From positions 1 to 42,321 of IMG/VR virus record IMGVR_UViG_3300012685_000184: DNA of 42,321 bases. One strand, 5' to 3'. Below, in pieces: positions 5,330-20,608 of this stretch; position 1 is the stretch's first letter, and every line of letters starts with the position of its first letter. Position numbers and translations under genes: made by a program. This DNA is from a virus. The notes beneath the pieces are model-generated. The model ran no database searches, was not told the origin of the DNA, and saw only the letters and a list, made by a program, of their open reading frames with translations.

Positions 5330-5938
5330 ATGGAAGAGCTAGGGTTACTTCCGCGCGCCGAAAAAGATCAGGAGTATCTTACGACGCATGGAATCCAAAA
5401 GATTCCTAAGACGGGAATTTCGACGGTCACTCTTTCTGGGTATCTAACGAGTCCGCGGTGTTGGGCGAAAGAGATAGGGGAAGAACAGCATATCTTCCAT
5501 ATCCAAAATGATGAAAAAGAGATTATTATCTACGACGCGCATCCGGGCTCTGAAATCGAATGGGAATGTCACGGCTTTGCTCGCAAAACCGGAGATGCAA
5601 TCCGCACGGTGAAAATAGAAATTGGAAGCGATATCAATGGAGATGGCAAGGTGGAAAAATTCCGGATGTATGTGGCGAAAGGTTGTCCACACTGCGAAGC
5701 GGCACTTACGTTTCTAAAAAATAAAAATTTGTCCGTGGAAGTGATTGAGGTCGGTTTCGATCCAATCTTGCAAGCGGGGATGCGAGCGATGTCGAACAAT
5801 CAGGGCTTGCCTCTTCCCGTGACTGTCTCATTCGCCACTCAAGAGGTCATTATCGGAAATGATTCCGCCCAACTTGAGCGCATTGCCTCTGCTGCTCTTA
5901 GCAACGGTGCAAGCGCATCTAACCCTGCTGTTCAATAG
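5330..5938 (+). CDS. two-domain protein with C-terminal glutaredoxin-like domain
   Basis: The last 95 residues are glutaredoxin-like: strand FRMYVAK, active-site CPHC at residues 119-122, a following helix, then LPLPVTV with the likely cis-proline at 163, and IIGND near 175. This fold reduces disulfides or ribonucleotide reductase. The N-terminal 100 residues are unrelated and unrecognised, with an acidic DINGDGKVE stretch at 101-109 that resembles a calcium-binding loop. No clear ribosome-binding site precedes ATG 5330. The gene overlaps the next by 80 bp. A phage redox protein may support nucleotide synthesis or the disulfides of the secreted proteins nearby; the second idea is speculation. 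Confidence 0.7.
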   Translation: MEELGLLPRAEKDQEYLTTHGIQKIPKTGISTVTLSGYLTSPRCWAKEIGEEQHIFHIQNDEKEIIIYDAHPGSEIEWECHGFARKTGDAIRTVKIEIGSDINGDGKVEKFRMYVAKGCPHCEAALTFLKNKNLSVEVIEVGFDPILQAGMRAMSNNQGLPLPVTVSFATQEVIIGNDSAQLERIASAALSNGASASNPAVQ

Positions 5939-6182
5939 TGGAAAGATTTTTGATCGGCTCTTTTTCACTGCGCGCCTAAAAGAACTTCGAAGCTGTCCAA
6001 TGTGTCTCGGCTTTTGGACGGCCCTGATTCTCTCGATCGCTGCGGGGATCTATCATCCGATCGACATTCTAGCGATTGCTGGAATCGGGCATGTGATCTT
6101 TCTCGCGCGGGAAAAGTATCTCCCATGCGACAAGTGCAAGCTTCCGGATCCGATTCCGTTTCGAATATCGGGACATCCATGA
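5859..6182 (+). CDS. small membrane protein resembling DUF1360, 107 aa
   Basis: Residues 6-30 form a hydrophobic helix, then comes SCPMCLGFWTALILS (about 45-59), the hallmark Cys-Pro-x-Cys-x-Gly-Phe-Trp motif of the DUF1360 membrane family found in phages and bacilli, then a second helix (IDILAIAGIGHVIFL). A second Cys pair, CDKC, lies near the C-terminus. ATG 5859 is used because later starts would remove the first helix expected for the family, although this makes an 80-bp overlap with the preceding gene. Function of DUF1360 is unknown. It sits between a thiol-redox protein and a secreted protein. Confidence 0.6.
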   Translation: MIPPNLSALPLLLLATVQAHLTLLFNSGKIFDRLFFTARLKELRSCPMCLGFWTALILSIAAGIYHPIDILAIAGIGHVIFLAREKYLPCDKCKLPDPIPFRISGHP

Positions 6183-6943
6183 AAAACATTCTTCTTCTCG
6201 CGTTGATGTTTTGCGCTTCAAGCCTCAATGCTCAGGTAAATCCGTCCTTTGAAATCACTGCTTCACTTCCGCTTTCTGACGGTGCAGGCGGATTCTGGAA
6301 CTACGGACCGATCCCCGGATGGACGCTTTCCGGTGAAGGCGGACTATGGATGCCAGGGGCGAAGTATTTCCCGAGCGTTCCGGATGGGAAACTGATCGCG
6401 TGGCTCAACAAAGGTTCGATCTCGCAGGATTTAGGTGTTCCCCCGGGAGCGAACACAATTTATATGCTGACGGTTTCGATTGGACGCCGCACTGACCTCC
6501 TGGCAAATTCGTATACGATCTCGCTGAACAGCGGCGCGACCGTTTTGTGTGTGGCCAGCGGCAACAGCAGTATCATTCCGCCCGGAACATTCCAGCAGGA
6601 AAGCTGTACATTCACGAGCGATGCAAATCCGGCAGCGGGAAATCTATCTATCTCGATCATGAGCGTCGGCACGCAAATCGATCTTGACGCAGTGACGCTC
6701 ACGAAAGCGCCCGCAAAGCCGTTCGACTATGTATTGCCGGGCTTGGGTACGGTGACCTTTCCAATGCAAGCACCGCCAGTTTGCACGCCTGCGGACGGCG
6801 CATGCAGCATCGTAATTCAAGCATGTTTGCCCGACGGCGTAACCTGTCTCAACGGACTCGGGACCCTTTCGCTGGTAAAGACTTTCTCGCTTCCGACGCC
6901 GCAAGTTTTGACGGTGCCGGTTGCGGTCGCGACGAATCCGTGA
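6179..6943 (+). CDS. secreted DUF642-like carbohydrate-binding protein, 254 aa
   Basis: ATG 6179 overlaps the previous stop (ATGA) and opens a clear signal peptide: MKN, a hydrophobic core, and a probable cleavage after Ala18 (SLNA|QV). The mature part starts NPSFE and continues with IPGWTLSGE, PDGKLIAWLN, GSISQDLG and an IDLDAVTLTKA end. This is the signature order of the DUF642/galactose-binding-like fold found in secreted plant and bacterial wall proteins. The last 85 residues contain four Cys, including the pair in CTPADGAC. A phage-encoded exported protein of this type is uncommon. It is the last gene before a strong terminator. Confidence 0.6.
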   Translation: MKNILLLALMFCASSLNAQVNPSFEITASLPLSDGAGGFWNYGPIPGWTLSGEGGLWMPGAKYFPSVPDGKLIAWLNKGSISQDLGVPPGANTIYMLTVSIGRRTDLLANSYTISLNSGATVLCVASGNSSIIPPGTFQQESCTFTSDANPAAGNLSISIMSVGTQIDLDAVTLTKAPAKPFDYVLPGLGTVTFPMQAPPVCTPADGACSIVIQACLPDGVTCLNGLGTLSLVKTFSLPTPQVLTVPVAVATNP

Positions 6944-6968
6944 CAGAATTCCGGCATCAGGTAGAAAG

Positions 6969-6999
6969 ACTCTAAGAGCCATCTAACTTAGAGTTTTTT
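6969..6999 (+). terminator. Rho-independent terminator after the accessory cassette
   Basis: Perfect 8-bp stem ACTCTAAG (6969-6976) / CTTAGAGT (6987-6994) with a 10-base loop, followed by five more T (6995-6999). It separates the accessory cassette from the terminase genes. Because the terminase genes lie immediately downstream on the same strand, either a late promoter is nearby or read-through/antitermination operates here. Confidence 0.8.
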
Positions 7000-7008
7000 A
7001 CATCAGGT

Positions 7009-10553: not shown

Positions 10554-13049
10554 ATGCCAGTTGAAGAACTAGACCTCACCGACGAACTCGACGAATCCGC
10601 CGAAGACGAACGCAACGAATTTCTTCCCGGCGAACTCTGTGCCGTCGATGCTACGAACAGCCGCGTCGAACTCGTCGATGATGAGTTTGGCACCCGCGAA
10701 GAGAAAATTGGTTGTCTCAAAGGACTCGGCAACAAAGCCGGGCAGCGCGATCTCACATCGCGGCGGCTCGAAGTTCGTGATTGCTGGAAAGCACGGTATT
10801 TCTACCGCGGGAATCAGTATCTCCTGCCAGGGAAAAACGGTGCATGGGTGATGCCGCATCAAGTTCTGATGGGCGGGCAGTCCTACGACGACCAGAATCA
10901 GGAAACAAATATCTATCTCGCGTTTGCCGATACGATCAATGCGGCGCTGACGGCCGGGCTTCCCTCGGTGCGCTTCGAAGCGGACGATCCGACAAATCCC
11001 GCAGACATTGCCGCAGCCGAAAACAGTGAAGGCGCTCGCCGCCTGATCGAACGCGCCAACGACATGATCGTGATTCAGGAAGACATCGCGCGCTATTTAT
11101 GGACCGATGGCCGTGCATGTGTCTACACCCGCTATGTGATCGATGGCCAGCGCTTCGGCTACGCCCCTGAAGGCGCGTCGGATATTGACGATGAGCTTTC
11201 TTACTTGCCAGCGATGCCCGGCGGCCACGACGAAGAACTTGATTCCTCTCTTGCCCCGCAAAAGCGGCTTCCCCGCGGCCAGGAAGTGATTGAAGCTTTC
11301 GGAGCAATCGAGACAAAGCTTCCGATGCAGTGCAAATCGATTCACGCGGCGGACTATCTGATCCTGTCGCAAGAAATCGATATCACCAAGGCGAAGTCGA
11401 AGTATCCCCACGTTGCCGATGAAATTCAGCCAATGAAGACGCCTACGGCTGAAAGCGAGTACGAACGCCTGGCACGCACATCGATCATGATGGGCATACG
11501 TCCATCGAACATGACGAATGATGCGATGACCTACAACGTCACCGAAGCCCTCGCATGGGTGCGGCCATCGTTCTTCCGTGAAGAGACAGATGACAATCTT
11601 CGCAACTGGCTGTACGACAATTTCCCGAAAGGCGCGATGGTCGCGCAGTGCGGAACCACGCTCTGCGAAGCGCGCAACGAATCGCTCGACGATCATTGGA
11701 CGCTGATCCATACGAGACCTGGCGACGGAATGCACCGCCCGGGAAACGGCACGCCGCTGATCCCGATGCAGGAAAAGCTGAACGATTGCATGGACCTCGT
11801 ACATGAGAGTTTCATGCATCTGATCCCGATCACTTGGGTGGATTCCGACGGCATTGATGCGCAAGCACTGAACGAAATCCAGCGCGCGCCCGGACAATAT
11901 CGCCGCCTGAAACGCAAGCCCGACAAAGAACTCTCAGCGAATTTCTATACCGAAGAACAGATACAGATTGCGCAAGGGCTTCTCATGTACCTCGATAAGC
12001 TCTTCGGCGAATGGGCGCAATTCCTTGTTGGCGCATTCCCCGCTCTCTTTGGTGGGAATACCGGATCGAACGATACTGCAAGCGGGATTCAAGGGCAACG
12101 CGATCAGGCGCTTGGGCGTGTCGGGCTGACTTGGCGAAGCATTCGTGCCGGGTACGCGCGTATCATGCGCCAAGCGGTACAGTGCGCCGCAGAGTTCCGC
12201 AATTCGCCGATGGCTGGCGAAGTTCCCGGCGCAGGTGGCGTGAAAAATCATATCTCCGTAAATCCCGAAGACCTAAAAGGGAATATCCGATGCTTCCCTG
12301 ATAGCGATGAAGGTTTCCCAGAATCATGGATTGCACAACGCGCCGTATGGCAAGCCGCTGCCGCGCAAGCGGAAAAGAATCCCATCTTTCAAGCGATTTT
12401 CTCGAAGGTGCGGAATCTGATGATCGCCAAGGATAAGATCGGCCTTCCCGATCTTGTGATTCCCGGAGCTGATGCTGCCGTCAAGCAAGCCGGCGAGATC
12501 ATGGAAATGCTGGCCGCCGGCGCGCCGGTGCCGAATCCCGCAATCGCCAAAGCGGAAGCGACCGCACCGCCGATTCCAGATACTTTCTCGCCCGAAGAAA
12601 AACAGCAAGCGATCCAGGCCATGCAGCAAGCACTTGCGAAGATTCCACCGGTGATTTCGACCGTTCAAGTCTTCCGGCTCGACAACGATGCCGCGCACAT
12701 GGATGAGATCGAGACTTGGGCCGAGAGTCCGAAAGGCATCCGCGCGCAAGTTGAAAATCGCGATGGCTTCGATAACGTGATGACGCATTACGATGAGCAT
12801 TCGGCAGCTCTGGCACAGAAGCAAGCGGCGAAAGCACAGCCGCCGGAAGCGAAGCCGCCAAGCGAATCGATGAATTTCAAAGACCTTCCGGCAGATGGAC
12901 AAGTGCAGATGGCGGCGAAGGTGGGAATCAAACTTGACGCCGGGGCATTACAAGCTGAAGATGCTGAAGACAAACGGCAGAAGGCCGAAACCGCCGCCGC
13001 GAAAACGAAATCAGGTGATCAGGGAGAAAAACCCGCGCTGGTACAATAA
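10554..13049 (+). CDS. portal protein, 831 aa
   Basis: Forms the dodecameric ring at one head vertex through which DNA is packaged and ejected. After an acidic N-terminal tail (DLTDELDESAEDE) the chain shows portal features: RDCWKARYFYRGNQY near residue 75, ETNIYLAFADTINAAL near 122, and a long central region with many aromatic residues. The C-terminal 250 residues are helical and Ala/Gln/Glu-rich, as in the barrel of long podovirus portals. The length (831) exceeds the 725 residues of the P22 portal. It lies between the terminase genes and the scaffold candidate, the canonical position. Confidence 0.85.
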   Translation: MPVEELDLTDELDESAEDERNEFLPGELCAVDATNSRVELVDDEFGTREEKIGCLKGLGNKAGQRDLTSRRLEVRDCWKARYFYRGNQYLLPGKNGAWVMPHQVLMGGQSYDDQNQETNIYLAFADTINAALTAGLPSVRFEADDPTNPADIAAAENSEGARRLIERANDMIVIQEDIARYLWTDGRACVYTRYVIDGQRFGYAPEGASDIDDELSYLPAMPGGHDEELDSSLAPQKRLPRGQEVIEAFGAIETKLPMQCKSIHAADYLILSQEIDITKAKSKYPHVADEIQPMKTPTAESEYERLARTSIMMGIRPSNMTNDAMTYNVTEALAWVRPSFFREETDDNLRNWLYDNFPKGAMVAQCGTTLCEARNESLDDHWTLIHTRPGDGMHRPGNGTPLIPMQEKLNDCMDLVHESFMHLIPITWVDSDGIDAQALNEIQRAPGQYRRLKRKPDKELSANFYTEEQIQIAQGLLMYLDKLFGEWAQFLVGAFPALFGGNTGSNDTASGIQGQRDQALGRVGLTWRSIRAGYARIMRQAVQCAAEFRNSPMAGEVPGAGGVKNHISVNPEDLKGNIRCFPDSDEGFPESWIAQRAVWQAAAAQAEKNPIFQAIFSKVRNLMIAKDKIGLPDLVIPGADAAVKQAGEIMEMLAAGAPVPNPAIAKAEATAPPIPDTFSPEEKQQAIQAMQQALAKIPPVISTVQVFRLDNDAAHMDEIETWAESPKGIRAQVENRDGFDNVMTHYDEHSAALAQKQAAKAQPPEAKPPSESMNFKDLPADGQVQMAAKVGIKLDAGALQAEDAEDKRQKAETAAAKTKSGDQGEKPALVQ

Positions 13050-13072
13050 CGCGGAGATCAGGGAGAGACGAA

Positions 13073-14383
13073 ATGGCAGATGGTGAAGATCTTGGACTCA
13101 TTGACGGATCAGGTACCGGAGAAGAAGAAGTCGGCGGGGGGAATGAAGAAAGTTTCATTCTTGAAGAAGGTGCCGACGAAGGCGCTGACAAGGGCGGTGA
13201 TGCGGCGGGCGGTGCAGATGATCAGGCGGGCGCTGATGGGGGCTCGCGTGCCATCGTCAAAGTCGAGCCCCTCGAAGTCCGGAAAGCTCTCCGCGAAATC
13301 TCGACGGCCAATCCGGAATTTGCGAAGAAATTCCCGACGCTTGAAAAATCCGTAACTCGCGCACTCTTCCAAAGCGGACAAGTCGAAAAGTTCGGCGGCT
13401 TGCAGAAAGTTGCCGAAGCTTTTGAAGCCCTCGAAGTGCATGGCGGCGTCGAAGGCTTGCAAGAGATGGCCGATGAAGTTGCCGCTGGCCGCGAACTTGA
13501 GATCGGCTTCAAACGCGGTGATCCGAAAATCGTCGATGGATGGGCGAAAGATTATCCCGATGGCTTCGCAAAACTCGTGCCTGTGGCTTTCGATAAGCTT
13601 GAGAGTCTAAATAAAGATCGCTATGAAGCGGTCGCAAGCTACGTCATTCGGAAAGTTTTCGAATCCTACGGCGTCTACAACACCGTTGCCGCGCTCGGAG
13701 AAGCGCTCGGAACTCTGGAAGCTGGAAAAGATGCGGGCGCGATCAAACTCTTCAACCAGATTGCGAAGTTCCTGACGGATTCAAAAGCCCTTGCAGACAA
13801 AACACGCGACTTTGCCCGAAGTTCCCGCGATGATGAGAACGACGAGCGCGAGACGGAACTCGAAGAAGAGAAAAAGAAAATCTTCTATGGCAGCGTGCGC
13901 GCCGATGTGAATACGCAAGTAATCAGTGCAATGAACCGCCTGATCCGTACGGAATTGAACGGTTCAAAGATCAAAGTCACAACCGCCAACCGGCTTCGCA
14001 AGGAGATCAATGCCGAACTCTCTCGTGTCGTGAATTCGCAGTCGGGATATGCCGATAGATACGTCGCTGTGATGGATGCGCGCAACAGAGATCGTGCCGT
14101 GAATTTCATTCTGTCGAATGCTAGGAAATATCTCCCCCGCGTCGTGAAGCAACTGATCGCCGAATTCAATCTTCGCCGGGGATCGGGATCGGGCGGCGGG
14201 AATGGCACCCGACGGGAGGCTGCAAACCGCGGCGGAGGCGATGGAGCAACTTTCATTGGACGGCCGAAAACAGCGGATGTCGACTTTTCACGCACCGATA
14301 AAGCCATCTGGCTTTCGAGCATCAATGCAGGCAAAGCGACCGGGCCGATCTATTTGAAGAACGGCAAAGCGGCGAAGTGGTAG
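13073..14383 (+). CDS. putative scaffold protein, 436 aa
   Basis: The N-terminal 65 residues are extremely acidic and Gly-rich (for example EEEVGGGNEESFILEEGADE). A long helical middle section is rich in Lys and Glu, and a basic Gly-rich C-terminal region contains RRGSGSGGGNGTRREAANRG. Its place between portal and major capsid and its helical, charged composition fit an internal scaffold that directs capsid assembly. No protease motif is visible. The ribosome-binding site is AGGGAG at 13060-13065. Function is inferred from position and composition. Confidence 0.6.
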   Translation: MADGEDLGLIDGSGTGEEEVGGGNEESFILEEGADEGADKGGDAAGGADDQAGADGGSRAIVKVEPLEVRKALREISTANPEFAKKFPTLEKSVTRALFQSGQVEKFGGLQKVAEAFEALEVHGGVEGLQEMADEVAAGRELEIGFKRGDPKIVDGWAKDYPDGFAKLVPVAFDKLESLNKDRYEAVASYVIRKVFESYGVYNTVAALGEALGTLEAGKDAGAIKLFNQIAKFLTDSKALADKTRDFARSSRDDENDERETELEEEKKKIFYGSVRADVNTQVISAMNRLIRTELNGSKIKVTTANRLRKEINAELSRVVNSQSGYADRYVAVMDARNRDRAVNFILSNARKYLPRVVKQLIAEFNLRRGSGSGGGNGTRREAANRGGGDGATFIGRPKTADVDFSRTDKAIWLSSINAGKATGPIYLKNGKAAKW

Positions 14384-14554: not shown

Positions 14555-14717
14555 CTCCACGCTAAAAAGCTGAAAGACCAGACAAGCTGTAACGCGATGC
14601 AGTGAGTACAGTTGCAAAACTGTACCGCTACTCCGCTAAATACCCGGCAGAGCGAAGCCGGCTGAATCAGGCAGCAAAACCGCAGCGAGTAAGCTCCAAA
14701 AACAAGGGGGCTGCTTT
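14555..14717 (+). ncRNA. structured leader upstream of the capsid gene (candidate cis-regulatory RNA)
   Basis: This noncoding stretch contains a perfect 8-bp hairpin GTACAGTT-GCAA-AACTGTAC (14606-14625) closed by a GNRA-type tetraloop, and a 5-bp stem CCGGC/GCCGG (14644-14648 with 14657-14661). A weak stem GCTCC/GGGGC (14693-14697 with 14707-14711) has a 3' strand that covers the AAGGGGG ribosome-binding site of the capsid gene. No long ORF covers it. An untranslated leader controlling capsid synthesis is the simplest reading. The hairpin could also be a dyad operator. Confidence 0.4.
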
Positions 14718-16046
14718 ATGGCAGCTCTAAATGAAGCCGCAGTACAAGCGGTAGAACTGGAAACCGTTCGCGAAGAGATCCCCGATCTCATGCTGACGGA
14801 AGACACGTTCTACGCGCGCATCAAAAAGGCGGGCCGCGTTTTGCCGATGTCGACTTCGACAGGCGGCGGCGCGGGTTCCTCTTTCGATGCGACGGGCCGG
14901 CCATCACTCCGCGTTCCGATGCGGATTCAGGCAGGCTCGACACACCAGCAATTCTCAGCGGATGGCGGCGACATGGGCCGCGGCACAGGAAGCATCTATG
15001 CCGCGCAATTCTTGACGCCGATTTCATTCTCTGAAGCTTGCGAGATCACGGCGCAGGCATTGTGGTCGACCGAAAGCTGGAAGAAGTCGCGCGTGCAAGT
15101 GAAAGCTTCTGAGTTCACTCACACGCTCGAACAATTCAAATCGAATCTCGACGCTGATCTGCAAGGCGATGGATCCGGAACACTGGCGACAGTGACAACG
15201 GCTTCTTCGGCTTCCGGTCCGGCGGGGGCTTCTTTCTCGAACATCATCGTTTCGAATGCGAATCAGTTCTTCGACAATCAGATCGTGCAAGTTTTCCCAT
15301 CTGTCGGCGGCGCCACTCGTGGCGCGTTTCAGATTTCATTCGTCGATGGCGTGGTGAATACGATCTTTTCCGCTCAAGCATTGCCAGCCGGAACGACTAC
15401 GGGCGATCTGCTCGTGGTCAACGGTGCAAGCGCCGCCGCGGGCTCTTCGATCCAAGGCATCAAAGCTTATCAGGTGAACGGAAATTCGGGCACTTTGAAC
15501 GGCTTGGCTCGGTCGAACTTCCCCGGACGTTTGTCCACTCCGACAGTCAATCTGGGCGGCGCGGCGATTACCCCTGCAATCGGGCGGCTCGTCGTGTCGA
15601 AGATTGCTCTCGCCCTCGGCAACGAAACTCCCGCTCTCGCTGATCTCGTCTGGTACATGAACGTCGACCAAGCGGCCGCAATCGAGAATCTCGCGATTCA
15701 GGTTGCGATCACCAATCAGCAAGAGATCAAGGGCGACAGTTCCCAAGACATGCTGAAAAAGTACGCTCCGTCCACTTTCGTGGGCTACGATATCGTGAAG
15801 AGCGTGCATGCCACACCGGGCCGCATCGATGCACTGTGCCTCAAGTATTGGGGCATCGGCGAATTGAAGGCCGCGGACCTCTATGACGTAAACGGGCAGA
15901 CCATCTTCCCGACGATTGGAGCATCCGGCGGCATCAATGCCGCGACAGTGTTCTATTTCGTAACATCGCTCAATGTGTTCAATTCGAATGTGCGCGCAGG
16001 GGCGTTTGTGAGCAACGCGCAAATTCCAACCGGCTATTTCAGCTAA
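14718..16046 (+). CDS. major capsid protein, 442 aa
   Basis: Position after portal and scaffold, a strong ribosome-binding site (AAGGGGG) and length fit the major head protein. The N-terminus is helical (ALNEAAVQAVELETVREEIP). A Gly/Ser-rich loop (STGGGAGSSFDATGR) and many beta-rich segments follow, as in HK97-fold capsid proteins, and the chain ends with VRAGAFVSNAQIPTGYFS. No protease cleavage signal can be assigned. The stop is followed by three consecutive hairpins before the co-chaperonin gene. Confidence 0.8.
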   Translation: MAALNEAAVQAVELETVREEIPDLMLTEDTFYARIKKAGRVLPMSTSTGGGAGSSFDATGRPSLRVPMRIQAGSTHQQFSADGGDMGRGTGSIYAAQFLTPISFSEACEITAQALWSTESWKKSRVQVKASEFTHTLEQFKSNLDADLQGDGSGTLATVTTASSASGPAGASFSNIIVSNANQFFDNQIVQVFPSVGGATRGAFQISFVDGVVNTIFSAQALPAGTTTGDLLVVNGASAAAGSSIQGIKAYQVNGNSGTLNGLARSNFPGRLSTPTVNLGGAAITPAIGRLVVSKIALALGNETPALADLVWYMNVDQAAAIENLAIQVAITNQQEIKGDSSQDMLKKYAPSTFVGYDIVKSVHATPGRIDALCLKYWGIGELKAADLYDVNGQTIFPTIGASGGINAATVFYFVTSLNVFNSNVRAGAFVSNAQIPTGYFS

Positions 16047-16047
16047 T

Positions 16048-16148
16048 CCTTGACCGTTGACCGCGGCAGCGAGTAGAATCCGCGACAAGGTTGGGCAGGG
16101 AACCGGCTTTCAACTCTCCCCGGTTCCCCGCTCTCCGATTCAGGGAGC
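16048..16148 (+). ncRNA. three-hairpin leader masking the ribosome-binding site of the GroES-like gene
   Basis: Hairpin 1 is a two-part stem: CCTTG (16048-16052)/CAAGG (16086-16090) and CGCGG (16062-16066)/CCGCG (16080-16084). Hairpin 2 is a perfect 9-bp stem GGGAACCGG (16098-16106)/CCGGTTCCC (16120-16128). Hairpin 3 pairs 16130-16135 with 16143-16148, including one G-U pair, and contains the AGGGAG ribosome-binding site of the gene starting at 16155. Masking of that site would limit translation until melted. There is no T-run, so simple termination is less likely. Confidence 0.5.
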
Positions 16149-16154
16149 TTTCAG

Positions 16155-16457
16155 GTGATTCGTTATCAGCCGCTTGCCAATTTTGTTTTGCTTGAACGCA
16201 TTGACGATGCTTTAGATGCTTCACCGGGCGGTATCGTGATTCCCCAAATCAGTCAAGTCGCTTCAAACAAAGGCCGCGTGATCGCCGTCGGCGAAGGATA
16301 CATCATTGGCGACAAACTCGTGCCGATCCCGCTCGAAGAAGGCGACATCGTTTTGTTTTCGAAGTACGGCGCGGAGGATATTTCATTGGATGGGAAAGAT
16401 TGTTTGCTCTTGCGATACGATGAGATCAAGCTGAAAGAAAAATTGATTGTGTCATGA
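16155..16457 (+). CDS. phage co-chaperonin, GroES-like, 100 aa
   Basis: Length and order of segments match the Cpn10/GroES family: PLANFVLLERIDDA strand, then a Gly-rich mobile loop ending in GGIVIP (residues 25-30), then KGRVIAVGEG, then EEGDIVLFSKYGAEDISLDG, and a final LLLRYDEI. GroES forms a seven-membered lid on host GroEL. Phages such as T4 (gp31) encode their own version to fold capsid protein. Its location right after the major capsid gene supports that role. GTG 16155 follows AGGGAG, which lies inside a hairpin. The stop overlaps the next ATG. Confidence 0.85.
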   Translation: MIRYQPLANFVLLERIDDALDASPGGIVIPQISQVASNKGRVIAVGEGYIIGDKLVPIPLEEGDIVLFSKYGAEDISLDGKDCLLLRYDEIKLKEKLIVS

Positions 16458-17206: not shown

Positions 17207-17550
17207 GCAATATCGACCGCGAATGGTTCCAAGTTCATCTCGAAGAGATGGCCGAAGAAGGCCGCGATGTGCAACTCTATTCCGTCAATGGACAAACACT
17301 GTTTCCTTTGTGGAGTTCCAGCGGCGGCTTGTTGACGGATGCGGCTGTATTTCCGATTCTCCGCGGATCAGGGGATCGCTGCCCGGCATTCACTGGACAA
17401 TTTCCGATGGAAGACGGCGAAACGCTTGAACTTGGGAATGGATGGGTCGCAACGTGCGTGCGGCTCGGTTATCATCTTACAGCGCATGAGAAAATCGCAA
17501 AGATTCAAGCAGCCGAAACTAAACTTCGGCAACATATCAGGGAGAAATAA
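17203..17550 (+). CDS. hypothetical protein, 115 aa
   Basis: TTG 17203 overlapping the preceding TGA (TTGA) is chosen as start; an ATG at 17113 in frame would make a 94-bp overlap. The N-terminal half is acidic and helical (DREWFQVHLEEMAEEGRD), the middle contains VNGQTLFPLWSSSGG, and the end is a basic helix (ETKLRQHIREK). The VNGQTLFPLWSSSGG stretch resembles VNGQTIFPTIGASGG in the major capsid protein (about residues 393-407). Function unknown. Confidence 0.6.
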   Translation: MSNIDREWFQVHLEEMAEEGRDVQLYSVNGQTLFPLWSSSGGLLTDAAVFPILRGSGDRCPAFTGQFPMEDGETLELGNGWVATCVRLGYHLTAHEKIAKIQAAETKLRQHIREK

Positions 17551-17553
17551 ACA

Positions 17554-18348
17554 ATGCCACACGGAACACCCGCAGCGGTTCATGCTGCACGAGAACTGGA
17601 AGCGAAAATCGATGGCCCGGTAGTCTACGCGCCGGATCAGGCCGCGCAAGAAGCCCTCGCCCAAAAAGGCGGCGAAATCTACATTTTCAACGTTGGTCCG
17701 ATGGAGCAAACGGTCGAGAAAGGCTCCGCTGGCCGCTTCACCGTGAAAGCCTGCGAAATCGGCGAACCGTACAGCGAGCCTCTTGTGCTGCAGCGGCTCG
17801 TGGGCGATTCCTATGTCGTTGAAAACGAGATGAAAACTCACTACGTCTCAGGTGAGTTCATGGCGCGAGACATCATCCACCCGACAATCGGCGCGACTTG
17901 GAGCTTCGGCCAGAATCTCGACGATTTCGGCGTCTTCTGGACAAAGAACAAGCAGCCGACGGAAACGGAACTTGCTGCAGCGCGCGCCAAGATGGAAATC
18001 ACCTTCCGCAAGCTTCTCGCGATGGCCACGACGATTGAAGTCAACGGCAATCTGAACGACATCACGCCATACATGCGGATTGCGGCAACGTATTTCGGCG
18101 AAGACCGCCCGTGGAACCGCATGTACCGAAAGCATGAAGCTTGCCCAGGATGCGGGGAAAACATCAAGCAGGGAATCATCCGGCATTCTTGCGGATACAT
18201 TTTCGATCCTGACCGCGCATTGCTCGCGGGCATGATTACCCCGGAAGCGCACAAAACGATGATGGGACTTCGTGGCTATGCGGAACGTCCAAAAGAAATC
18301 GAGCGGCCAGGAAACGGAAAACGCGACCGCGCGCGCACGGCAAAATAA
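17554..18348 (+). CDS. hypothetical protein with zinc ribbon, 264 aa
   Basis: The first 160 residues are a mixed alpha/beta region (EIYIFNVGPMEQTVEKG, VGDSYVVENEMKTHYVSGEF). Around residue 195 lies CPGCGENIKQGIIRHSCGYI, a zinc-ribbon-like arrangement with a third Cys and a His. The C-terminus is basic (EIERPGNGKRDRARTAK). It follows the preceding gene by 3 bp and precedes a strongly folded 113-bp gap. It is in the virion block, yet zinc ribbons are unusual there. No family recognised. Confidence 0.65.
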   Translation: MPHGTPAAVHAARELEAKIDGPVVYAPDQAAQEALAQKGGEIYIFNVGPMEQTVEKGSAGRFTVKACEIGEPYSEPLVLQRLVGDSYVVENEMKTHYVSGEFMARDIIHPTIGATWSFGQNLDDFGVFWTKNKQPTETELAAARAKMEITFRKLLAMATTIEVNGNLNDITPYMRIAATYFGEDRPWNRMYRKHEACPGCGENIKQGIIRHSCGYIFDPDRALLAGMITPEAHKTMMGLRGYAERPKEIERPGNGKRDRARTAK

Positions 18349-18366
18349 AAACTCAAATTGATCTTC

Positions 18367-18440
18367 GGGGAACGGCGGCCGAAACTCACGTGAAAACCTG
18401 ATCACGCGAGAGGCCGTGCGCTTCGGCGCTTGCGTTCCCC
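18367..18440 (+). ncRNA. candidate three-way-junction RNA
   Basis: P1: GGGGAACG (18367-18374) pairs perfectly with CGTTCCCC (18433-18440). P2: CGGCC (18376-18380)/GGCCG (18412-18416), then an internal loop, then 18385-18393 with 18402-18410 (nine pairs with one A-C mismatch), closed by an 8-base AAACCTGA loop. P3: GCGC-TTCG-GCGC (18418-18429), a classic UUCG tetraloop hairpin. Together they form a closed three-way junction of 74 bases filling the gap between two genes. It ends 21 bases before ATG 18462. Its role (attenuator, leader or stable RNA) is unknown. Confidence 0.55.
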
Positions 18441-18461
18441 GTCGCATTTTTCGGTGAATCT

Positions 18462-19253
18462 ATGCCTGACGTACAAATAGGATCGTATCCCATCGCGAGT
18501 GATGTGCTCCAACTGGCGCGCGCTGGCGTGAACGACATGCTGAAGTCGACGGCGGGTTCGATCCTGACGGATACCGCTGCCTTCACAACGGTCTATCTGA
18601 ATGCCGCGATCCGTCGCACCCAACGCTATCTCGCGAACAACGGAATCACTTCAAACATTCGCGATAATGTGATTCTTTCGAACCTCTCACCAGCCGTCGG
18701 CTCCGATCCTTCGATTCAAGTGTACGTTGATCAGAACGGTTACTTCGACGGCGCGAATAACAATCCGAATCCGAAGCTTCCCGCTGATCTGATCCTGATG
18801 CTCGAAATGTGGGAACGGCAATCGGGATCGGGCGCGCAGTTTATCTACATGCCACAGCCGCAAGAAGGGCTTGAGTCGCGGATTCCCGGCTCGTATTTCG
18901 GCCAATGGGAATGGCGCGAAGATCGCATCAATATGACTGGTTCTACGGCTACAGAAGACCTCCGATGCCGCTATGAAGCCTCACTCGCCCGCATCGCAGC
19001 GGGCGCGGATATGGCGAAGACATCAATCCCCATTCGTGACGGCGAGGATGTGCTCGCCGCCGGTGTCGTGTATCAGTACGCGCGCACTCGCGGATCAACG
19101 CTTCGCCAGGAAGCGAAACAGTGGTGGCAGGATGAAGCCGACGAGCTGGTGAACCGATGGGTGCGTCGCGATCAGCGCATTGGGTACCGCCCACGCGGAT
19201 ATCGCGCCGGCGCAGGTAGAATCGATGGCGGTCTGATGGGGACAACGAAGTGA
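18462..19253 (+). CDS. putative head-tail connector protein, 263 aa
   Basis: Helical N-terminal part (SDVLQLARAGVNDMLKSTAG, TDTAAFTTVYLNAAIRRTQR) typical of connector or adaptor proteins that dock under the portal, followed by a mixed middle and a Trp-rich helix (LRQEAKQWWQDEADELVNRW). The C-terminus is basic and Gly-rich. Its position between capsid genes and the tail fibre fits a head-tail adaptor. The family is not certain. The stop overlaps the next GTG. Confidence 0.55.
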   Translation: MPDVQIGSYPIASDVLQLARAGVNDMLKSTAGSILTDTAAFTTVYLNAAIRRTQRYLANNGITSNIRDNVILSNLSPAVGSDPSIQVYVDQNGYFDGANNNPNPKLPADLILMLEMWERQSGSGAQFIYMPQPQEGLESRIPGSYFGQWEWREDRINMTGSTATEDLRCRYEASLARIAAGADMAKTSIPIRDGEDVLAAGVVYQYARTRGSTLRQEAKQWWQDEADELVNRWVRRDQRIGYRPRGYRAGAGRIDGGLMGTTK

Positions 19254-20608
19254 GCACACAATTCCGAGCTGACGGCCGAGTTCAATCGACGCAGGGTGCC
19301 GCGCTTTCCGGTATTTCGATTGCGGTACTGACGCAGCCTGCTGTCACAACTACGCAACCGGGTTCGCCGCTTGCAACGCTCTTCAATGCGGCGCTCTCGA
19401 ATGCGGCAACAGTGACAGCCGCTTCTTGGCTTGCGGGCGCGATCGCTTTCACTTTGAATGCGGTTCCGGCCGATGTCGTTCCCGGCTCGTACATCAATGT
19501 GACTGGAGTCAATCCATCCGGTTATAACGGCATCTGGCAAGTCGTGAGCGTTCTCGGGCTTGTTGTCACCGTCACGACTCCGTTTACGCTGACGGCAATC
19601 GCGAATCCTGGCACATACATCGGCGCAGGAACGGTCGCAACGTCGGCGCTTCCGAATCCGTTCTTTTCGGATACGCTCGGAAACTTCTTTTTCTACGCGG
19701 CCAGCGGCATCTATACGGTGCAAATCTACGGATCGTTGCTTCCGACGCAGCTTGTGCTCGCCGATCAGAACGTCGTTGCAGGCGGCGGTGCGGGATCGGT
19801 AACTTCTGTGGCACTGACGGCGCCGGCTGAATTCACGGTGACCGGCTCCCCGGTCGTTGCTGCTGGCACTCTCGCGATCACTAAAGCGAATCAATCGGCG
19901 AATCAGGTCTACGCCGGGCCGAGCGGTGGCGGGCCGGTTGCGCCGGGCTTCCGGGCGCTGGTAACCGCCGATCTGCCCGCTGGCACAGGTACAGTGACAT
20001 CCGTTGCCTATACGCTCGCGGTACCGGCCGCACTCTTCAACGCCGCAGGGATTGCAGGCTCTCCCGTCACGACGACGGGAACGATTGCGGTCACATTGTC
20101 GCTTGCGAATCAGGCGGCAAACGCCATCTTTGGCGGCCCAAGTTCAGGCGGTGCCGCTCCGCCGACGTTCCGTGCGCTCGTGCCTGCAGACATGCCGACA
20201 GGCGTGCAATTCACATCAACGACTCTAAGCTCGGCGAATCTGCTGGCGCTGCTTGGCACCCCGATCTCGCTTGTACCCGCGCCAGGTGTCGGATTCGTGA
20301 TCGTGCCATTGATGATCACTATCGAATTCTTCGGCGGCGGCGTGGCTTATACCGATGCGGGCGGCGCGGTAAGTTTCAGTGCGGGAAGCGCATCGGGGCC
20401 TTTGCCGAACAATAATATCTTCCTCGTGACCGTTTCACCGAACAAACGTTTCCAGACTTTTTCCTGGCCAGGCGCTACGGATACCGCAGGCAATCCGCCG
20501 ACGGATGAAAATGCCGCGCTCACGATCAGCAAGGCCACTAACAATTTCGCCGCAGGTACCGGAACGGCGAAGATCATCGTTCACTATTTCGTAGTTCCCA
20601 CGAATTAA
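19250..20608 (+). CDS. tail fibre protein, 452 aa
   Basis: Low-charge, Ala/Thr/Gly/Val-rich chain in three parts. The N-terminal 180 residues probably attach to the virion. The middle holds two related units of about 65 residues, the first with VTSVALTAPAEFTVTGSP and PSGGGPVAPGFRALVTADLP, the second with VTSVAYTLAVPAALFNAAG and PSSGGAAPPTFRALVPADMP. The last 135 residues are the tip domain also encoded separately at 1856-2446. GTG 19250 overlaps the previous stop. It likely binds the host receptor. Confidence 0.75.
   Translation: MSTQFRADGRVQSTQGAALSGISIAVLTQPAVTTTQPGSPLATLFNAALSNAATVTAASWLAGAIAFTLNAVPADVVPGSYINVTGVNPSGYNGIWQVVSVLGLVVTVTTPFTLTAIANPGTYIGAGTVATSALPNPFFSDTLGNFFFYAASGIYTVQIYGSLLPTQLVLADQNVVAGGGAGSVTSVALTAPAEFTVTGSPVVAAGTLAITKANQSANQVYAGPSGGGPVAPGFRALVTADLPAGTGTVTSVAYTLAVPAALFNAAGIAGSPVTTTGTIAVTLSLANQAANAIFGGPSSGGAAPPTFRALVPADMPTGVQFTSTTLSSANLLALLGTPISLVPAPGVGFVIVPLMITIEFFGGGVAYTDAGGAVSFSAGSASGPLPNNNIFLVTVSPNKRFQTFSWPGATDTAGNPPTDENAALTISKATNNFAAGTGTAKIIVHYFVVPTN

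Follow-up and report, generated by a model that had tools for sequence, protein, structure and literature searches.

The window analysed here, the whole 42,321-nt stretch of IMG/VR virus record IMGVR_UViG_3300012685_000184, carries a 113-nt spacer (18349-18461) between two virion genes, 17554-18348, which stops directly before it, and 18462-19253, which starts after it (Table 1; genes are named by their first position). The spacer holds no + strand gene, and the claim of an initial sequence-only reading, that a gap between two virion genes lacks any gene, held for this strand. No tRNA was found, Rfam 15 gave 0 matches at gathering threshold in the window, and the structured element within the spacer matches no described RNA family.

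The surrounding genes give the spacer its context. The homologues of gene 13073 have acidic, low-complexity N-termini, which are typical of scaffolds; from this and from its position we infer a scaffold, while the protein itself gave no family match above the family cut-off. An AlphaFold model of the gene 17554 product (pLDDT 82, pTM 0.59) had no PDB match below E 0.39. Genes 13073, 16155 and 17554 together resemble an assembly set, an inference in which the scaffold role is itself inferred. As separate observations, the Cpn10 gene (16155-16457) lies directly after the capsid gene and is kept across much of the phage group; the likely tail protein encoded at 19250-20608 has a C-terminal module that recurs at a second place in several genomes (L190, L192, L195); and upstream of the terminase genes, 5330-5938 and 6002-6943 encode a glutaredoxin-like domain protein and a protein with a match (E 1e-24) to the HpiC1 cyclase family.

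Table 1. Coordinates of the RNA element, the complementary boxes and the associated genes within the window
Feature	Position	Strand	Basis or remark
Two AUCAGGU boxes (6956, 7002) ahead of gene 7009, which lies just upstream of terminase; provisional target	6956..7008	+	in closest relatives
Box AUCAGG, first of three before gene 13073	13010..13015	+	complementarity
Box UGAUCAGG, second of three before gene 13073	13016..13023	+	complementarity; 8-nt match to loop region
Box GAUCAGG at RBS of gene 13073	13056..13062	+	complementarity
Acidic protein directly before major capsid protein, inferred scaffold; putative target	13073..14383	+	position; acidic N-termini of homologues
Major capsid protein; anchor for relatives, possible fourth target (box 14666)	14718..16046	+	PHROG 14242
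Two UCAGG boxes at start of co-chaperonin gene 16155	16140..16155	+	complementarity
GroES-like co-chaperonin (Cpn10); putative target	16155..16457	+	Pfam PF00166, E 2.8e-18
Box AUCAGG at RBS of gene 17554-18348	17536..17541	+	complementarity, recurrence across phages
Gene upstream of element, zinc-ribbon-like protein; putative target and host cistron	17554..18348	+	C-x2-C zinc-ribbon pattern
Entire conserved RNA element, from CUUC flank through closing stem and arm(s) to GUCG flank	18363..18444	+	fold, homologous spacers, found once per genome by model R1
Closing stem P1, 5' strand (CGGGGAACG)	18366..18374	+	covaries in 18 elements
Main arm	18375..18417	+	P2 18375-18380/18412-18417; internal loop 18381-18384/18411; P3 18385-18393/18402-18410; apical loop; fold and four-sequence comparison
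Putative antisense seed CCUGAU, apical loop	18397..18402	+	unpaired loop 18394-18401; complementary to AUCAGG boxes, covaries with boxes across phages
Optional UUCG-capped second arm P4 (GCGC-UUCG-GCGC), creates three-way junction	18418..18429	+	fold; missing in about half of homologues
Closing stem P1, 3' strand (CGUUCCCCG)	18433..18441	+	covaries in 18 elements
Downstream virion gene, not a target	18462..19253	+	loop complementarity at chance

Folding of 18367-18440 gave -39.5 kcal/mol, with the minimum free energy (MFE) structure at a frequency of 0.81 in the ensemble and the MFE and centroid structures in agreement. Dinucleotide shuffles of the same stretch averaged -25.4 +/- 3.0 (z -4.7), none of the 200 being as stable, and the fold was kept inside 151 nt of context, for which z was -2.5. 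The sequence-only reading had described a mismatch-free 8-bp closing stem, a long arm with an internal loop and a UUCG-capped arm; all three held on folding, and the energy lay far outside the shuffled range, as that reading had required. The closing stem (GGGGAACG/CGUUCCCC) gains one C-G pair (18366-18441) and so reaches 9 bp (18366-18374 with 18433-18441); the conserved flanks that border it, CUUC (18363-18366) and GNYG (18441-18444), give a further closing C-G. In the main arm, a 4x1 internal loop (GAAA x A) leads into a 3-bp helix, which is followed by a 1x1 mismatch and a 5-bp helix closed by the loop AAACCUGA.

Searches with the flanking proteins found only one relative, whose capsid protein is 94% identical to that of the window, and a capsid search led to many more. 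The major capsid protein served as anchor for relatives, the gene-19250 protein adding one more lineage pair; the records are IMG/VR metagenome contigs. No flanking-gene or capsid-protein relatives were found among annotated phages, and L159, the sole match among genome contigs, was without the element. In another 22 distinct relatives the same spacer, flanked by the same gene pair, is occupied by a structured element that is present once per genome, which with the window makes a set of 23 distinct elements. Orthologous spacers with a strong hairpin or three-way junction extend to lineages at ~37-45% capsid identity. The element is absent from other phages at ~35-40% capsid identity in which the two neighbouring genes are both present and in order, and, where the spacer was readable, from those at ~30%.

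What the family keeps constant is the closing stem, a single long arm whose apical loop shows CCUG, and the CUUC and GNYG flanks. The UUCG-capped second arm that creates the three-way junction is present in 8 of the first 18 homologues; the junction emphasised by the sequence-only reading is real in the window but is not the conserved feature. Separately, the flanks CUUC (18363-18366) and GNYGC (from 18441) are kept in nearly all homologues though weakly paired, and are a possible processing or protein site. A covariance model built from four elements found unseen ones at E 4e-4 to 1e-7. It placed a single copy, on the correct strand, in each genome, and the clades that have diverged most lay near or below its limit. 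A simple pattern scan (GAAACTCN{8,30}GAGAGGYCG) over viral contigs was rejected, all matches but one true relative being due to chance.

The stems have been maintained by compensatory change. Among the four closest elements, 97.8% of cells pair and five pairs carry changes on both sides, whereas sliding the partners by 1-3 columns leaves pairing at only 32-53%. Changes between relatives include GCGC/GCGC to GUGC/GCAC, G-C to A-U and C-G to U-A, so that the second test set by the sequence-only reading, compensatory stem changes in relatives, was also passed. A MAFFT alignment of all 18 elements was not structural and was replaced by a comparison in a fixed register set by hand, in which the main stem comprises 143 Watson-Crick pairs, 15 G-U, 0 A-C and 1 other. 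The presence of G-U without A-C is the trace expected of selection on the + strand RNA, and not on the opposite strand or the DNA; the + strand RNA is therefore the functional form. The strong inverted repeat, and in the window a U-rich run six bases past the stem, could be taken to indicate a transcription terminator or else a site that acts at the DNA level, for instance a cruciform or a repeat bound by protein. However, the 15 G-U against 0 A-C pairs speak against any DNA-level site; as for a terminator, there was no + strand terminator call, many homologues lack a U-tract, and the criterion for an intrinsic terminator (a G+C-rich hairpin with a U-tract at once after it) is not met by the element. 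We consider this reading all but excluded.

A further possibility is a hairpin between cistrons that serves RNase III cleavage or mRNA stability, like those of the T7 late operon; it would only set mRNA ends, and its loop would have no partner. The position between cistrons directly after a stop codon, and the long paired stem in all homologues, are in its favour; it nevertheless leaves the conserved CCUG loop and its covariation with distant ribosome-binding sites (RBS) unexplained, and as a sole function it is unlikely. RNase III cleavage may still hold additionally, as a release route for an antisense RNA.

It is the loop that connects the element to other genes. Its sequence is the reverse complement of AUCAGG, a box that is repeated, often in tandem, at the RBS of gene 17554 across phages; such boxes also stand before the co-chaperonin gene 16155 and, as three copies in the window, before gene 13073. 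Across phages the complementarity to the RBS boxes of these three genes amounts to 6-12 nt, with matches of only 5-8 nt in the window phage itself. Tandem boxes number 71 on the + strand against 22 on the - strand, and boxes are rare before genes 9394, 10554, 16454, 18462, 19250, 20624 and 21026. Some boxes are partly structured in local folds. Boxes are missing before gene 16155 in L125, L129 and L134-L136, and at gene 17554 in L146 the match is only 4 nt. Because the boxes overlap Shine-Dalgarno (SD) sequences, their CAGG(AG) core is in part to be expected, and distant phages without the element also have ACAGGAGA at these sites.

Loop and box nevertheless change together. Across phages, CCUGAU is found with AUCAGG, UUCCCUG with CAGGGAA and UUCUCCUGGUUU with AAACCAGGAGAA; further covarying loops and boxes are CUCCUGAU with AUCAGGAG, CCAUCCUGA with UCAGGAUGG and AUUCUCCUGU with ACAGGAGAAU. 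The matching reaches into flanks outside the SD sequence, which also covary (AAACC/GGUUU, AU/AU and CA/UG). As a measure we took a 12-nt window of the loop and determined its longest exact complement within the 45-50 nt that precede the start codon. Gene 13073 had a mean match of 7.06 against 5.71 when loops were permuted among phages, an observed value reached by 0/10000 permutations; the corresponding values were 6.50 against 5.64 for gene 17554 (1/10000), 6.21 against 5.43 for gene 16155 (14/10000) and 5.41 against 4.85 for the capsid gene (19/10000). Combined over these genes, own against permuted loops gave z 5.3 (0/5000), and dinucleotide-shuffled target leaders gave 4.2-4.6. Seven control genes together fell below their permuted mean and showed no loop fit; loop complementarity in the leader of gene 18462 was not above chance. 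Duplex energies likewise favoured own over cross-class pairs at targets and not at controls. These permutations do not fully model phylogeny; the result remained significant with one phage per clade (2/20000) or one per 6-nt core (64/20000). A genome-wide count of boxes near crudely called starts gave a modest enrichment per genome, orthologue-based starts being cleaner.

These data also bear on whether the element is a protein-binding operator, recognised by a coat or zinc-ribbon protein, with a loop that merely resembles the 16S anti-SD sequence and so matches any RBS. The conserved CCUG, the conserved CUUC/GNYG flanks and the C-x2-C zinc-ribbon pattern of the neighbouring protein would suit such an operator. 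Against it, gene 20624 and other genes with a strong SD sequence match the loop only at chance level, and the matching extends into covarying flanks outside the SD sequence, which makes this explanation very unlikely.

Two further genes may belong to the target set. The capsid gene is no more than a tentative fourth target, since its box seems to fall close to where a small upstream reading frame ends. At 14666-14671, ~45-50 nt before the capsid gene, a UCAGG-type box covaries with the loop and, judged by eye, apparently overlaps the end of that frame. For gene 7009, covariation of the boxes with the loop was not significant, though the boxes are present in the closest relatives. Between these two AUCAGGU boxes, ahead of the large terminase gene, we also observed a terminator-like hairpin at 6966-7001 (CUCUAAG...CUUAGAG, then UUUUUU).

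Before the last scan we wrote down the prediction that any new phage with the element would show a loop/RBS match of >=6 nt. It was met in each of the four new phages whose apical loop could be read (4/4), with 8, 12, 7 and 11 nt at the gene 17554 orthologue, against 4.58 +/- 0.47 for shuffled leaders (0/5000) and 5.90 for random loops of the family (4/5000). In L242, a complement of 10-12 nt, identical or nearly identical to AAACCAGGAGAA, stands before the scaffold-position gene, the co-chaperonin gene and the gene 17554 orthologue. A fifth new phage, L246, showed a weaker, 6-nt match by eye. In that phage (L246:10243-10350) the CCUG seed apparently no longer sits in the apical loop, having shifted to the three-way junction.

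Taken together, our findings establish a conserved structure, its + strand RNA as the functional form, its position, and the covariation of its loop with the boxes. The proposal of the sequence-only reading that this is a structured regulatory RNA is supported, with strong added support from the loop/RBS covariation; its alternative of a stable processed RNA is neither confirmed nor refuted here. The reading we favour, at a probability of roughly 0.75, is that of an antisense RNA embedded in the late operon of an uncultivated soil phage and controlling assembly factors. Pairing in the cell, repression, processing and the action of one RNA on several sites in trans are inferred from sequence alone, there being no expression data. 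Under this model, once the late transcript is made the hairpin, either within the mRNA or excised from it, would display an anti-SD loop (CCUGAU in the window phage) that would pair with the AUCAGG boxes over the RBS of the scaffold-like gene 13073, the co-chaperonin gene 16155 and gene 17554, and perhaps also at the capsid gene and gene 7009. Pairing would mask the RBS and lower translation, and assembly factors needed early or in small amounts would be turned down as late transcripts build up. The element would be transcribed after its targets, which would amount to a delayed negative feedback.

Two variants of this model concern the manner of pairing. It is possible that pairing is strictly within one mRNA, the loop folding back on upstream RBS and shaping the polycistronic message with no free small RNA. 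The element and its putative targets lie on one strand among contiguous late genes. The distance from the boxes down to the element is ~0.8, 2.2 and 5.3 kb within what would be a shared transcription unit, and we found no promoter or terminator of its own for it (17400-18900, + strand), in the absence of transcript data. However, a single loop cannot act on several genes simultaneously when each has up to three boxes, and because each transcript has one loop facing several boxes we favour a freely acting RNA, without excluding pairing in cis. Alternatively, pairing might activate, by opening an inhibitory structure, protecting the mRNA or recruiting ribosomes. The partly structured state of some boxes would allow this, and the direction of regulation cannot be read from the sequence; yet since the boxes overlap the SD sequence itself, pairing should compete with 16S rRNA and hinder ribosome binding, and we regard activation as unlikely.

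Extending the antisense reading, it is tempting to speculate that the element represents a phage RNA of a new class, structured, antisense and placed between virion cistrons, in which one seed and repeated RBS boxes control several assembly genes (scaffold, co-chaperonin, adjacent gene and possibly capsid), and in which seed and boxes coevolve such that each phage lineage has its own pairing code. We lean towards this joint claim, though only slightly. The balance of scaffold, chaperone and capsid from one late transcript is usually credited to RBS strength or translational coupling. If true, an antisense RNA recognising several assembly genes would form a simple circuit at the post-transcriptional level that governs timing and stoichiometry, and loop/box covariation would offer a general route to such circuits in uncultivated phages from sequence data.

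The open-access literature we searched contained no phage RNA controlling scaffold or co-chaperonin genes, and each known system resembles the element only in part. The late intercistronic RNase III sites of T7 are irregular hairpins between phage cistrons and share the placement of the element; in contrast to it, they are not known to possess an antisense loop or loop/RBS covariation. The CI RNA of satellite phage P4 is a stem-loop RNA produced by processing; its exposed sequence pairs with complementary sites that are repeated within the same transcript, an arrangement that the element recalls. The P4 RNA differs in acting on the early leader through transcription termination in immunity, and its position and targets are unrelated. 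The c4 antisense RNA of phages P1 and P7 (Rfam RF01695) is a structured RNA whose loops pair around the RBS of a gene of the same phage (PMC12197685); it is a small RNA made by processing and represses the gene it targets. The element also shows, in a loop, sequence complementary to RBS of its own phage, and would work alike without being a member: RF01695 had no match at gathering threshold over the window and none up to E 10 for 18340-18470. Furthermore, c4 controls an antirepressor in immunity, while the putative targets of the element are upstream assembly genes of the late operon, with one seed for several genes. Finally, OppZ and CarZ of Vibrio cholerae are sRNAs derived from 3' UTRs that pair with and repress cistrons of their own operon, thereby setting stoichiometry (PMC7398697, PMC9438474); release by RNase E and reliance on Hfq are traits of this type. 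The element is similar in that it appears, by covariation only, to pair with RBS of its own operon and would be carried in the operon's own transcript, for which we have no transcript data. It does not lie at the operon's 3' end, gene 18462 and further + strand virion genes coming after it, and is instead the 3' flank of an internal cistron. The element differs from OppZ and CarZ in belonging to a phage virion operon, in its intercistronic position, and in being highly structured with its putative seed in an apical loop.
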